46,065 nucleotides of DNA from Acidobacteriota bacterium. Lineage in GTDB: Bacteria > Acidobacteriota > UBA4820 > DSQY01. The position numbers and the translations under genes were made by a program. The DNA lies in contig JBFMHB010000018.1 in the NCBI GenBank assembly GCA_040752915.1, forward strand, positions 1 to 46,065, written 5' to 3'. Of this stretch, positions 27,713-41,976 are shown piece by piece (within the stretch, counting starts at the first letter, position 1; each line of letters opens with the position of its first letter). A model generated the notes under the pieces. It was not told the DNA's origin. It saw only the letters and a program-made list of their open reading frames with translations, and searched no databases.

Positions 27713-29272
27713 ATGAACCTCCGCTACGGCGACCTTTCGGAGATCCGCGAGAAGCTGTCCCCCGCGGAGGAGCGCTTCGAGGCCCGGCGGAGAACGGCGG
27801 GCCTCTATCTCGGCCCCGCGGTCTTCCTTCTGCTTCTCCTGGCGCCCCTGCCCGCACCCTCCGCGGCAGCCTCCCGCCTCGCCGCGGTGGTGGCGTGGGT
27901 CCTGGTCTGGTGGATCACGGAGGCGGTCCCCATCCCCGTGACGGCCCTGCTCGGCCCGTCCCTCATGGTGCTCCTGCGTGTCTCGGGACCGGGCGAAGCC
28001 TTCTCCCCTTTCGGGGACCCCGTGATCTTCCTGTTCCTGGGCTCCTTCATGCTCGCCGAGGCCATGGCCGTCCACGGGCTCGACCGGCGCGTCGCCTTCG
28101 CCCTGCTTTCCTCGCGCCTGGTGGGGGGCTCCGCCGCCCGGGTCCTCCTGGCCTTCGCTGGGCTGGCGGCTGGCCTCTCCATGTGGCTCTCGAACAGCGC
28201 CACGACGGCCATGCTCTTCCCCATCGCCCTGGGCGTCCTGGGCGCCATGGCGCGACTCCTTTCCGCGGGCGGAAGGGAGGTGGACCCGACGCGGCTCCGG
28301 TTCGGTACGGCGCTCATGCTCCTGTGCGCCTTCGCCTCCTCCATCGGCGGCATCGGGACTCCCGTGGGAACACCGCCGAACCTCATCGCCATGGGATACC
28401 TGGACAAGCTCGCGGGCGTAAAGGTCCCGTTCTTCCAGTGGATGCTCCTGGCCCTTCCGATCCTCCTCGTCATGCTCTCCGCGGCCCTCGTCCTGATGCG
28501 CCTCCTCCTGCCCCCCGAGGTGCGGAGCATCGAAGGGGCCTCCGAGATCCTGAGGCGGGAGCGGGCGGCCATGGGCCCCATGTCACGGGGGGAGTGGAAT
28601 GTCCTTTCCGCGTTCCTCCTCGCCGTGGTCCTCTGGGTGCTTCCCGGCGCCGTGGCCGCCGTGGCGGGCACATCCAGCGGGCTCTACGTCCTTCTCCAGA
28701 GCGTCCTTCCCGAGAGCGTCGTGGCCTTGGCCGCCTCCTCCCTCCTCTTCCTCCTCCCCGCGGACCGCGCGTCCGGCACCTTCACCCTCACCTGGAACCA
28801 GGCCGTGCGCATTGACTGGGGCACGCTCCTCCTCTTCGGCGGCGGGCTCTCCCTCGGCGCCGCCATGTTCAAGACGGGGCTCGCGGGGGCCGTGGGACAA
28901 GGCCTCGTTTCCGCCACGGGCGCTCGCTCCACGCTGGCGCTGACCTTCCTGTTCGCCGCCGTGGGAATCGTCGTCACCGAAGTCACCTCCAATACGGCGG
29001 CGGCCACCATGCTCGTCCCCCTCGCCATCGCCGCCGCCGCAAGCGCCGGCGTGTCGCCCCTGGAGCCCGCCGTCGCCTGCGCCCTGGGATGCAGCATGGC
29101 CTTCATGCTGCCCGTCTCCACCCCTCCCAACGCCATCGTGTACGGCTCCGGCTGCGTCCGCATCACTCAGATGATCAAGGTGGGGGTGTCCTTGGATGCG
29201 GTGGCGGTGGTCGTCATCCCCCTGGGGGTGTATATCGTGGCGCCGCTCGTCTTGGGAGGGGGGGGGCCGTGA
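27713..29272 (+). CDS. SLC13/DASS-family sodium:anion (dicarboxylate or sulfate) transporter
   Basis: A 519-residue transporter with about eleven membrane segments. The two SNT-type motifs are LSNSATTAMLFPIALG and TSNTAAATMLVPLAIA. The paired TPPN motifs are GTPVGTPPNLIAMGYL and PVSTPPNAIVYGSG. These bind sodium and anion in DASS proteins. The ATG at 27713 follows AGGGGGAAGG. Its GTGA stop overlaps the start of arfB. The soluble first 30 residues are charged. Substrate is not decidable between succinate-type acids and sulfate or phosphate. Confidence 0.9.
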   Translation: MNLRYGDLSEIREKLSPAEERFEARRRTAGLYLGPAVFLLLLLAPLPAPSAAASRLAAVVAWVLVWWITEAVPIPVTALLGPSLMVLLRVSGPGEAFSPFGDPVIFLFLGSFMLAEAMAVHGLDRRVAFALLSSRLVGGSAARVLLAFAGLAAGLSMWLSNSATTAMLFPIALGVLGAMARLLSAGGREVDPTRLRFGTALMLLCAFASSIGGIGTPVGTPPNLIAMGYLDKLAGVKVPFFQWMLLALPILLVMLSAALVLMRLLLPPEVRSIEGASEILRRERAAMGPMSRGEWNVLSAFLLAVVLWVLPGAVAAVAGTSSGLYVLLQSVLPESVVALAASSLLFLLPADRASGTFTLTWNQAVRIDWGTLLLFGGGLSLGAAMFKTGLAGAVGQGLVSATGARSTLALTFLFAAVGIVVTEVTSNTAAATMLVPLAIAAAASAGVSPLEPAVACALGCSMAFMLPVSTPPNAIVYGSGCVRITQMIKVGVSLDAVAVVVIPLGVYIVAPLVLGGGGP

Positions 29273-29691
29273 TCCGCGTGACGCCGTCCATTTCTCTCCG
29301 CGACGAGGAGGTCGTGGAGGAGTTCGTCCGGGCTCCGGGCCCCGGGGGCCAGAACGTGAACAAGGTGTCCACGTGCGTCCAGCTCCGCTTCGACGCCGCG
29401 GGCTCGCCGTCTCTTCCCGAGGAGGTGCGGGAACGCCTGCTCGCCCTTGCCGGGGCCCGCCTCACTTCCTCGGGAGAAATCCTCATTACGGCCCGGCGCT
29501 TCCGGTCGCGCGAGCGAAACAGGCAGGACGCCGTGGGCCGCCTGGTGGCCCTCATCCGGGAGGCCGCCCTCGTCCCCCGGAAGCGGGTGGCGACGGCGCC
29601 CACCGCCGCCTCGCGGGAGCGGCGCATCTCGGAAAAGAAACGGCGCGGCGCCCTAAAGGGCCGGAGAGGGGCGCCGGAGGAAGAGGATTAG
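29269..29691 (+). CDS. arfB: Alternative ribosome-rescue factor/peptidyl-tRNA hydrolase
   Basis: A 140-residue protein beginning VIRVTPSISLRDEEVVEEF at the GTG within the SLC13 stop. The catalytic GGQ lies in RAPGPGGQNVNKVSTCVQLRFD. The tail is strongly basic (ASRERRISEKKRRGALKGRRGAPEE), as in ArfB/YaeJ, where it enters the empty mRNA channel of a stalled ribosome. It frees stuck peptidyl-tRNA without a stop codon. Length fits the family. Coupling to a transporter gene looks incidental. Confidence 0.92.
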   Translation: MIRVTPSISLRDEEVVEEFVRAPGPGGQNVNKVSTCVQLRFDAAGSPSLPEEVRERLLALAGARLTSSGEILITARRFRSRERNRQDAVGRLVALIREAALVPRKRVATAPTAASRERRISEKKRRGALKGRRGAPEEED

Positions 29692-29800
29692 CCGCCGGGG
29701 CGAACCGCAGGAGGGCGATGGCTTGGCTTTCGCCGACTGCGAGTTCCGCCATCTCCCGCATCCCCAACCCCCCTCTTCCCGGCGCCTTCGCTGACCCTAC

Positions 29801-29900
29801 GAACGCCCGCGCGGCCGGGGCGTTCTCTCCCGTCCGAAGCCAGGCGCGGCTGACGCCTGGGCGAGCGAGCCGGGAAGGGAGCTCGAACGCCCCCTTTTTT
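29801..29900 (+). terminator. Multi-arm hairpin terminator, possibly an attenuator
   Basis: Three complementary arms are present: GAACGCCC (29801-29808), GGGGCGTTC (29817-29825) and GAACGCCCC (29885-29893), the last followed by C and TTTTTT (29895-29900). Arms 2 and 3 pair over 9 bp, extended inside by CTCCC (29827-29831) with GGGAG (29877-29881), and enclose the hairpin CCAGGCG/CGCCTGG (29840-29860). Arm 1 can pair with arm 2 over 8 bp instead, which would break the terminator. It may end the SLC13-arfB transcript or control the next gene. Confidence 0.65.
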
Positions 29901-29976
29901 CGGGAGCCCGCCGGTGTTAGGGTATGGAGGACCGTCGGGCAACTCCGCGAGCCTCGGTGGGAAGCAGGGGGTCCTC

Positions 29977-31056
29977 ATGGCAGGGGTCCAGGAAATCTCG
30001 GTCATTTCGCCCATCGATCCGGCGCTCCAGCACACCCGCCGCGTCCTCTTCGAACACTTCGACCTCAAGAAGTGGTTCGTCATGGGCTTCTGCGCCTTCC
30101 TCGCCCATCTCGGGGACGGAGGGGGAGGCTTCAATCCCGCGGGGAACTTCGGCGGACGGGGCCGCGGCGGGCGCGACGATCTGGACGATTTCGGGCGGGG
30201 CGCCGGTCAGTGGATGGCCGATCACTGGGGCCTCGTGATCCTCATCGCCGGGGGAGTGATCCTCTTCGTCTTCGCCCTCGCCACCCTCCTCACCTGGCTC
30301 TCCAGCCGGGGCAAGTTCATGTTCCTCGACAACGTCATCAAGAACCGCGCCGCCGTCAGCGAGCCCTGGGAGCGCTTCCGCGCCTTCGGGAACACCCTCT
30401 TCGTCTTCCGCTTCCTCGTGGGCCTTACGGGTCTCGGGGCCTTCGCCCTCATCGGAGGCTTCTGCTTCGTCCTCGCTTACCCCAACATCCGCGACGGCCG
30501 CTTCGGGGCTCGGTCCGTCACGGCCCTCCTGCTCGGCCTCCTTCTCCTCGCCATCCTTCTCGTCTGCCTCGCTCTCCTCCAGATGGCCGTCAACGACTTC
30601 GTCGTGCCCATCACCTACCGGCGGGGCGCACGGCCCGTGCAGGCCCTCCGGATCTTCCGGGACGAGATGCTGGCCGGCCACGAGGGCGTGTTCCTGCTGT
30701 ACGTGCTGGCCAAGGTCGTCATCGCCATCGTCGCCGGCGTCCTGGTTCTCATCGGCACCTGCGTGACCTGCTGTATCGCCGCCCTGCCCTATCTCAGCAG
30801 CGTGGCTTTTCTTCCCATTTTCGTCTTCGTTCGCTCCTATTCCCTTTACTTCCTGGAACAGTTCGGGCCCGAATGGCGATTCTTGTCGCAGGCTGCCCCC
30901 GCGCCGCAGACCCCGCCGGCGCCGGCACCCGAGGCGCCGATGCCGGCGCCCATGCCTTTCGAGCCCCTTCCCGAGCCATCGGAGGCGACCGGCGCCTCCG
31001 CTCGGGAAACGGCTCCCTCGCCGCCCCAGGACCCCACATCCGAGGCCCCAAAATGA
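29977..31056 (+). CDS. Polytopic membrane protein of unknown function
   Basis: A 359-residue protein. After a cytoplasmic start (ISVISPIDPALQHTRRVLFEHFDLKKWFVMGFCAFLAHL) comes a Gly-rich loop with GGRGRGGRDD. Five or six membrane segments follow (LVILIAGGVILFVFALATLLTWL, FRFLVGLTGLGAFALIGGFCFVLA, ALLLGLLLLAILLVCLALLQ, VVIAIVAGVLVLIGTCVTCCIAALPYL). The last 70 residues or so are Pro/Ala-rich and disordered. The layout resembles uncharacterised DUF4013/DUF7544-type proteins, but I cannot confirm this. It overlaps the helicase start by 4 nt and should be co-transcribed. Confidence 0.7.
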   Translation: MAGVQEISVISPIDPALQHTRRVLFEHFDLKKWFVMGFCAFLAHLGDGGGGFNPAGNFGGRGRGGRDDLDDFGRGAGQWMADHWGLVILIAGGVILFVFALATLLTWLSSRGKFMFLDNVIKNRAAVSEPWERFRAFGNTLFVFRFLVGLTGLGAFALIGGFCFVLAYPNIRDGRFGARSVTALLLGLLLLAILLVCLALLQMAVNDFVVPITYRRGARPVQALRIFRDEMLAGHEGVFLLYVLAKVVIAIVAGVLVLIGTCVTCCIAALPYLSSVAFLPIFVFVRSYSLYFLEQFGPEWRFLSQAAPAPQTPPAPAPEAPMPAPMPFEPLPEPSEATGASARETAPSPPQDPTSEAPK

Positions 31057-32537
31057 CCGAATCCGAACCGAACAGGCCCGCCGAACCCCTCGTCGAGCCC
31101 GACAACGCCCTTCCTGAAACGACCCTGGAGGCCCTTCCCGAGGCCGTGCGCGAGGCCGCCGCGCGGGCCGGCTGGTCCGCCCTCATGCCCGTTCAGGCCA
31201 AGGCCATCCCCTACTTGCTCCAGCGCCGGGACCTGATGGTTCAGTCCCGGACCGGAAGCGGGAAGACAGGCGCCTACATCCTTCCCATGGTGCATCAGTT
31301 GGACCCCGCTTCGGCGACCTGCCAGGCCCTGGTTCTGACGCCCACCCGCGAGCTGGCCCACCAGGTGGCGCAGGCCGCCACGCTCCTCTTCGGCGAAAGG
31401 GGCCTGCACGTGGTCTCCGTGTACGGGGGGGCGGCCTACGGACCCCAAATCGAAGGGTTCAAGCGGGGCGCCCACCTCGTCGTGGGCACCCCGGGGCGGA
31501 TCCTGGACCACCTCATCCGAGGAACCCTGAGCCTCGACGGCCTGAAGTTCCTCGTTTTCGACGAAGCCGACCGGATGCTCTCCATGGGCTTCTATCCGGA
31601 CATGCGCCGGATCCAGTCCTTCCTCCCCCGCCGCCGCGTGCACGGCTCCATGTTCTCGGCCACTTACCCCCCCTACGTCCTTCGCCTGGCGGAGGAGTTC
31701 CTGGACCACCCCGGGTTTCTCAGCCTGAGCAAGGACCATGTCCACGTGGCCGAGACGACCCACCTCTTCACCGTCTGCCCGCCCATGCGGAAGGACCGGT
31801 CCCTCGTGAAGATCCTCGAGGTGGAGAACCCCTCCTCCGCCATCATTTTCTGCAACACCCGGGAGAATGTGGGATTCGTCACGACGGTCCTCCAGCGCTT
31901 CGGCTACGACGCCGACGCCCTCAGCGCCGACCTCACCCAGGCCGCCCGCGAGAAAGTCATGGCCAGGCTCCGGGAGGGCTCCTTGCGGTTCCTCGTGGCC
32001 ACCGACGTGGCCGCAAGAGGCATCGACATCCCCGAGCTGTCCCACGTGATCCAGTACGAGCCCGGCGAGGACCCCGAGTCGTACGTGCACCGCTCCGGCC
32101 GAACGGGGCGCGCGGGGGCCGCCGGCACCGCCATCACCCTGGTGGCGGGCATGGAGGAGATCCGGTTGATGGAAATCGCCCGCGCGTACAACCTCCCCAT
32201 GGAGGAGCGGCCCCTCCCCACCGACGAGGAGGTGGAGGCCCTTGTGGCCCAGCGCGTCACGGCGCTCCTCGAATCCGAATTCCGCGCCCTCGACAACATC
32301 CGGAAGGAGCGCCTCAAGCGCTTCCTTCCCCTGGCGCGGAGCCTCGAACAGGAGGCCGACGAGACGGATCTCGTCGCCATGCTCTTGGACAATTATTACC
32401 AGCGGAGCCTCCACGGTCCCGAGACGCCGCCCCTCGGCGCCGCCCGCCCTCCCGCGCCGTCCCGCGAAAACAGGCCTCGCCGTCCCGAGGGCCGGTCCCG
32501 CGAGGGCCGTGACCGCCGTCCCCCCAGGAGACGGTAG
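31053..32537 (+). CDS. DEAD-box RNA helicase
   Basis: A 494-residue ATP-dependent RNA helicase. Motifs in order are the Q-region MPVQAKAIPYLLQ, I SRTGSGKTGAY, Ia PTRELAHQ, Ib GTPGR, II DEAD (VFDEADRML), III SAT (MFSATYP), IV IIFCNTRENV, V ATDVAARGIDIP and VI HRSGRTGRAG. The C-terminal 60 residues are basic and Arg/Pro-rich (RPRRPEGRSREGRD), as in RNA-binding tails. The acidic N-terminus is about 35 residues long. The role is probably ribosome assembly or mRNA turnover. The ATG overlaps the membrane-protein stop. Confidence 0.95.
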   Translation: MTESEPNRPAEPLVEPDNALPETTLEALPEAVREAAARAGWSALMPVQAKAIPYLLQRRDLMVQSRTGSGKTGAYILPMVHQLDPASATCQALVLTPTRELAHQVAQAATLLFGERGLHVVSVYGGAAYGPQIEGFKRGAHLVVGTPGRILDHLIRGTLSLDGLKFLVFDEADRMLSMGFYPDMRRIQSFLPRRRVHGSMFSATYPPYVLRLAEEFLDHPGFLSLSKDHVHVAETTHLFTVCPPMRKDRSLVKILEVENPSSAIIFCNTRENVGFVTTVLQRFGYDADALSADLTQAAREKVMARLREGSLRFLVATDVAARGIDIPELSHVIQYEPGEDPESYVHRSGRTGRAGAAGTAITLVAGMEEIRLMEIARAYNLPMEERPLPTDEEVEALVAQRVTALLESEFRALDNIRKERLKRFLPLARSLEQEADETDLVAMLLDNYYQRSLHGPETPPLGAARPPAPSRENRPRRPEGRSREGRDRRPPRRR

Positions 32538-41947: not shown

Positions 41948-41976
41948 GAGGGGCCTTCGGGCCCCTCCTTTTTTTT
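41948..41976 (+). terminator. Rho-independent terminator of the HU gene
   Basis: GAGGGGCC-TTCG-GGCCCCTC (41948-41967) is an 8-bp stem with a stable TTCG tetraloop, then C and eight Ts (41969-41976). It starts 25 nt after the HU stop. Confidence 0.95.

Follow-up and report, generated by a model that had tools for sequence, protein, structure and literature searches.

In trp-type attenuators, arms of the leader RNA pair with each other in mutually exclusive ways, only the late pairing forms a terminator, and a leader ORF lies before the first arm. Intrinsic terminators are recognized by a G+C-rich stem followed closely by a T run, and a compact loop is a usual, although not strictly required, trait. 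The vmlR leader of Bacillus subtilis, as PMC9226507 describes it, is an attenuator controlled by an upstream ORF (uORF), with four stem-loops, an anti-antiterminator, and measured transcripts. For hairpin-cluster terminators, PMC8355165 gives loops of 5 to 8 nt in 81% of the hairpins, in a data set from which Acidobacteria were left out.

The locus described here lies in a 46,065-nt stretch of DNA (the window) from an acidobacterial genome of 3.07 Mb in 153 contigs, and its DNA is about 70% G+C. On the plus strand, a sodium:sulfate symporter-family gene is followed by an arfB-like gene, a 285-nt spacer, a DUF7544 gene, and a DEAD-box helicase gene. The start of the arfB-like gene overlaps the stop of the symporter-family gene, which ends at 29272, and the helicase start and the DUF7544 stop share an ATGA overlap; DUF7544 and the helicase are predicted to form one operon. 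The genes next to the spacer are as follows.

29269 to 29691, plus strand: arfB-like gene with an RF-1 domain, 140 aa (Pfam PF00472, E 1.1e-17).
29977 to 31056, plus strand: DUF7544 membrane-protein gene (PF24400, E 2.3e-31), on the start of which the relatives agree.
31053 to 32537, plus strand: DEAD-box RNA helicase gene (PF00270, E 7.2e-45; PF00271, E 8.6e-31).

The helicase frame is open for 1,113 codons, from 29196 to 32537, across arfB, the spacer, and DUF7544, which is probably an effect of the high G+C content and is a pitfall for automated start calls.

The spacer contains the following features.

29723 to 29794, plus strand: candidate 23-codon leader ORF, with AGGAGG (29709 to 29714) 8 nt ahead of its TTG start and 6 nt between its end and arm 1.
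29775 to 29791, plus strand: upstream arm of a further inverted repeat, with its partner at 29861 to 29877 (82% over 17 nt).
29801 to 29808, plus strand: arm 1, GAACGCCC, pairing with 29818 to 29825 over 8 perfect bp, with 9 nt between.
29817 to 29825, plus strand: arm 2, GGGGCGTTC, common to both pairings.
29861 to 29877, plus strand: partner arm of the further inverted repeat, pairing with 29775 to 29791.
29885 to 29893, plus strand: arm 3, GAACGCCCC, pairing with 29817 to 29825 over 9 perfect bp, with 59 nt between; the predicted terminator stem.
29895 to 29900, plus strand: T6 run, one base 3' of arm 3; predicted to act as the terminator's U-tract and possibly as the -35 of the promoter that follows.
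29915 to 29923, plus strand: candidate extended -10, TGTTAGGGT, matching TGnTAnnnT, with 17 nt between the T run and its hexamer.

With intrinsic terminators, this element shares a G+C-rich perfect stem flush with U6 behind the last of several co-directional genes, but its loop is branched and 59 nt long instead of short, and a competing hairpin lies upstream. With trp-type attenuators, it shares exclusive arms, of which the late one would form the terminator, and an SD-led short candidate ORF just before arm 1, but it differs from them in the absence of a regulatory codon run, in the TTG start, in its absence from the relatives examined, and in the promoter-like site after the terminator. A uORF, an alternative fold, and an intrinsic terminator within one leader are likewise combined in vmlR (PMC9226507), with the difference that the present element is known from sequence alone. 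Several hairpins in one inter-operon spacer are also the feature in common with the hairpin-cluster terminators of PMC8355165.

These features are read here, with moderate confidence, as a Rho-independent terminator of unusual build that ends the transporter-arfB transcript, followed just downstream by a separate promoter for DUF7544 and the helicase. RNA polymerase would transcribe 29817 to 29900, the RNA would fold into the 9-bp G+C-rich stem (29817 to 29825 with 29885 to 29893) around the branched 59-nt loop, and the elongation complex would dissociate on the U6 run at 29895 to 29900. The DUF7544-helicase operon would then start from its own promoter, composed of a T-rich -35 at 29895 to 29900, a 17-nt spacer, and TGTTAGGGT at 29915 to 29923. 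The copy of the stem in arm 1 would act as a competing hairpin and lower the termination efficiency, and the arfB-like gene would be the upstream gene whose transcript ends at the hairpin and T6. Termination, promoter activity, and the limits of the operons are thus all predicted properties. A terminator followed by a separate promoter requires fewer assumptions than an attenuator, and as a terminator the element would matter little beyond marking an operon boundary.

The original prediction that one arm can pair with either an early or a late copy of its complement is borne out: arms 1, 2, and 3 are present at the positions given, the two pairings are mutually exclusive, and only the late one (arm 2 with arm 3) is flush with T6. 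Within arm 2, the partner of arm 1 is GGGCGTTC (29818 to 29825), and the first eight bases of arm 3 are identical to arm 1. The inverted repeat formed by 29775 to 29791 and 29861 to 29877 closes a fold that encloses the arm 1-arm 2 hairpin. In chance tests that were devised after the feature had been seen, none of 100 shuffles of the window contains T6 flush with a 9-bp inverted repeat, an 8-bp repeat flush with T5 occurs in 3 of 2,000 shuffles, and the three arms together with a T run occur in 0 of 5,000 spacer shuffles. If no T run is required, three such arms are not unusual, with a mean of 0.47 per shuffled window and 9 occurrences in 2,000 spacer shuffles. In the window, a second plus-strand three-arm set (relaxed gaps) and a minus-strand set (strict gaps) are CGG-type repeats, and a second relaxed-gap set on the minus strand was counted only. 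A match in a relative (G004:C156:16030) proved to be a separate short hairpin and not a three-arm element.

The use of such hairpins was surveyed in 451 kb of the same genome on both strands (the window, L057, and a further 393 kb). Of 35 T6 runs, 5 are flush with a perfect stem of 8 bp or longer, compared with 0 of 35 in the reversed control, and stems rich in G+C followed by T6 behave as a class in this genome. Four of these five stems are compact (loop of 12 nt or less), and the stem at 29817 to 29893 is the sole one with a long loop (59 nt). The counts before T6 therefore support hairpin-plus-T termination in this genome and mark the present hairpin as atypical: it has the G+C-rich 9-bp stem with T6 one base later that defines an intrinsic terminator and lacks the compact loop. 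Among runs of T5 or longer, 8 of 187 have such a stem (control, 0 of 187), two of them with long loops, namely the present stem and a 9-bp stem flush with T5; chance could therefore account for a single stem of this kind in 451 kb. The sequence CCCCTTTTTT occurs 14 times in the genome, compared with 5 times for the backwards pattern; by inspection, about nine of the 14 sites lie right after a compact hairpin (one of them weak), four are without one, and that of the window is alone in being long-range. A simple terminator scan with a loop limit of 8 nt did not list the hairpin at 29817 to 29893. A compact textbook terminator is present elsewhere in the window, at 41948 to 41976 (GAGGGGCCTTCGGGCCCCTCC followed by T8).

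The second part of this reading, the separate promoter, bears directly on the original prediction, which had named initiation of the next gene at its own downstream promoter as evidence against an attenuator; on sequence criteria only, a promoter-like site is indeed found between the T run and DUF7544. The candidate -10, TAGGGT, is weak, and a consensus -35 is absent. The extended pattern TGnTAnnnT occurs three times on the plus strand and four times on the minus strand of the 46-kb window and 0.078 times per strand-kb in the 451 kb, a density that corresponds to about 0.006 per 76 nt; since it is found less often than its reversed control (70 versus 150 in the 451 kb), it is a rare word without support as a promoter class. 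A sigma-70 scan of 28500 to 32000 found no site on either side of the T run, a null of little power because only 0.1 sites are expected by chance. In two same-family relatives, G001 and G004, the DUF7544 leaders can be aligned with that of the window, with a score reached by 3 of 500 shuffles in each case, and the two alignments are not independent because the relatives are close to each other. Both relatives have TTGTTT or TTGTTG, 17 nt, and TATGCT, and their -35 falls on the T run of the window, which may therefore be a U-tract, part of a promoter, or both. In the G001 alignment, TATGCT stands against TATGGA of the window, five bases beyond the candidate TAGGGT. For the helicase leaders, alignment with the window is less convincing in both relatives (score reached by 360 of 500 shuffles for G004 and by 29 of 500 for G001). 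DUF7544 apparently has a start signal of its own.

The alternative closest to the original prediction is a translation-coupled, trp-like attenuator, in which a ribosome finishing the ORF at 29723 to 29794 would cover arm 1, arms 2 and 3 would pair, and transcription would stop, and in which an untranslated ORF or an early stall would let arms 1 and 2 pair and polymerase read through into DUF7544 and the helicase. This is considered unlikely. Alone, hairpin 1 (arm 1 with arm 2) has -14.9 kcal/mol, and the whole terminator fold at 29817 to 29893 has -45.0 kcal/mol; when either helix is forced in RNAs ending at 29900, the two differ by about 2 kcal/mol or less for 5' ends at 29692, 29750, 29781, and 29801, in agreement with a switch. 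With the same RNA end, the equilibrium probability of the terminator helix is 0.93 to 1.00 for 5' ends within arfB (29269, 29500, and 29600), 0.00 to 0.07 for 5' ends from 29692 to 29775, where the competing fold wins, and 0.63 to 1.00 for 5' ends from 29781 to 29817. Exclusion of arm 1 (5' end 29806) gives 0.96, compared with 0.07 and 0.01 from 29692 and 29750, as covering by a ribosome would require. Against this, the terminator still reaches 0.89 from 29795 with arm 1 present; it ranges from 0.18 to 1.00 over the 14 5' ends in RNAs extended to 29930 and is dominant for 14 of 14 (0.55 to 1.00) in RNAs extended to 29990, which makes any preference for the arm 1 fold a matter of the RNA ends chosen. 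The check by folding that had been proposed thus gives two competing folds of nearly equal energy and a winner that depends on both ends of the RNA. Because these are equilibrium figures with errors larger than the differences compared, and because the total folding energy is typical of sequences of this base composition (z of -0.21, -1.29, -0.18, and -0.51), the bistability is real in the model but a weak argument for a switch. Where G+C content is about 70%, repetition of one arm of a stem readily yields two near-equal folds, and bistability by itself argues only weakly for regulation. The same model also tells against the terminator reading, in that the competing fold obtained with 5' ends from 29692 to 29775 could block termination.

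The candidate leader ORF, which the original prediction did not mention, is the other point in favor of translational control. In 3 of 5,000 shuffles, an SD-led ORF with 8 or more codons ends no further than 25 nt from arm 1, by a criterion set after the fact, and a ribosome at the stop of the candidate ORF would be expected to cover part of arm 1. The TTG start is weak, however, and the peptide, LAFADCEFRHLPHPQPPSSRRLR, contains no run of a single amino acid longer than two and no regulatory codon run. The ATG at 29718 lies 3 nt from the same SD, and its frame runs open into the helicase. The AGGAGG stretch may have another origin, since 29705 to 29733 matches the antisense of a coding stretch in two other genomes, G022 and G048. 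In a search of the spacer against 100 genomes including its own (E up to 1), 89 of 100 gave a match; among the matches listed, those outside the genome itself are short, and the best is this 29-nt stretch (93% in G022, E 3.2e-5; 90% in G048, E 6.8e-4). It matches on the minus strand, and in both genomes the matching place falls within an open frame of 618 codons on the opposite strand, presumably an ABC transporter judging by its residues; the stretch could be a coding remnant or a chance match. A trp-like attenuator is also disfavored by the promoter-like site 3' of the T run and by the failure of the sigma-70 scan of 28500 to 32000 to find an upstream promoter, although arfB transcripts could feed the leader.

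The comparison with relatives points in the same direction. Eight same-family relatives were searched, and in the genome set compared the genus contains this genome only. DUF7544 is present in five of the eight (E up to 0.001) and arfB in three (E up to 1e-12), and no T5 run is found in any of the five DUF7544 leaders or within about 330 nt downstream of arfB in any of the three same-family genomes. G005 has a compact hairpin downstream of arfB. In G001 and G004, the gene order differs from that of the window, with the helicase directly 3' of arfB and preceded by its own TGTATAAT about 137 nt before the start of the match, without a T run. The lack of a T run in these relatives means that the three-arm element is either lineage-bound or too diverged to be seen, and its absence from genomes of the same family, not of the same genus, may be compatible with a young regulatory element. 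Around the best 80 of 180 DUF7544 loci, no arfB, transporter, or helicase gene was found nearby at E 1e-8 (flanks of up to 4 kb, with many contigs shorter). Of the proposed attenuator layout, the exclusive pairings and the position between arfB and the membrane-protein and helicase genes stand, against the relatives without a T run and the promoter-like site downstream; an attenuator for the DUF7544-helicase operon is possible and less well supported than the terminator. It is more doubtful still that this is a lineage-specific, ribosome-controlled attenuator of an uncultured acidobacterial lineage, in which translation of the 23-codon ORF decides whether arm 1 is free and hence whether the arfB transcript continues into DUF7544 and the helicase, so that ribosome rescue and RNA-helicase expression would both be coupled to the state of translation. 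If an attenuator is indeed present, expression of an RNA-helicase operon would be tied to the state of translation just after a ribosome-rescue gene.

A chance arrangement in a G+C-rich spacer, with the T run serving only as the -35 of the DUF7544 promoter and the arms having no role, is also rather unlikely. It agrees with a folding energy no better than that of shuffles, with the alignment of the T run to the -35 of the relatives, and with the second long-loop 9-bp stem (before T5) in the 451 kb, by which a genome-wide look may meet one, but it has to accommodate the flush 9-bp stem before T6 and the three arms with a T run, neither of which was recovered from the shuffles described above.

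A far less probable origin is a decayed fragment of a dispersed element, a short ISL3-borne repeat, or else a small RNA gene with its 3' end at the T run. The stretch from 29825 to 29863 shares 79% identity over 39 nt with the interior of a repeat family in this genome (E 0.0057), a score reached by 2 of 1,000 shuffles, and the piece that contains it scores best among 161 window pieces. Two other window pieces score nearly as high, however (34.6 and 33.7 versus 35.6 bits), and the idea that the three-arm region is a copy of the repeat is weakened by the finding that the inner part alone matches and the ends of the element are missing, as judged from the six of 11 repeat copies used for the end comparison and the scoring of window pieces. 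The stretch is possibly a decayed repeat fragment, or a chance match. Against a small RNA gene, no upstream promoter was found, and Rfam 15 gave no riboswitch, leader, or small RNA in 29600 to 30100, with only a chance-level mir-207 match on the other strand (E 3.5), and nothing but two tRNAs at gathering score in the whole window. No 6S RNA (RF00013) was found in the genome, a weak null because the model matches in just 5 of 14 control genomes. A leader that senses a protein or temperature through the same two folds and has no leader peptide, such as one for DEAD-box autoregulation, would fit the helicase in the operon and the near-equal energies but is highly improbable, given that the first downstream gene is DUF7544 and not the helicase, that a T run is absent from the helicase leaders in G001 and G004, the same-family genomes in which arfB lies upstream of the helicase, and that this region has no Rfam match.

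The dispersed repeat family itself consists of copies of about 450 nt and internally deleted copies of about 155 nt, with ends GGCTCGTCTGGAGAATCTGTGC and GCACAGATTC...GGAGCC in an alignment of eight copies. The genome contains 11 matches at E below 1e-14, the query copy included; examples are the following.

L058, 5950 to 6416, minus strand: repeat copy.
L096, 188 to 634: repeat copy.
L097, 510 to 972, minus strand: repeat copy.
L099, 520 to 980, minus strand: repeat copy.
L057, 4482 to 4637: repeat copy.

A nearly identical repeat end adjoins open frames with ISL3-family domains (DDE_Tnp_ISL3 in L108 and Zn_ribbon_ISL3 in L103), and the family therefore resembles MITEs mobilized by an ISL3-type element. 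In G001, the arfB-helicase spacer (L124, L115) carries an insert, absent in G004, with inverted ends ATTCCGCGAT...ATCGCGGAAT and inner GTAGGAGCGCC...GGCGCCGCTCCTAC, which is another small repeat-like element.
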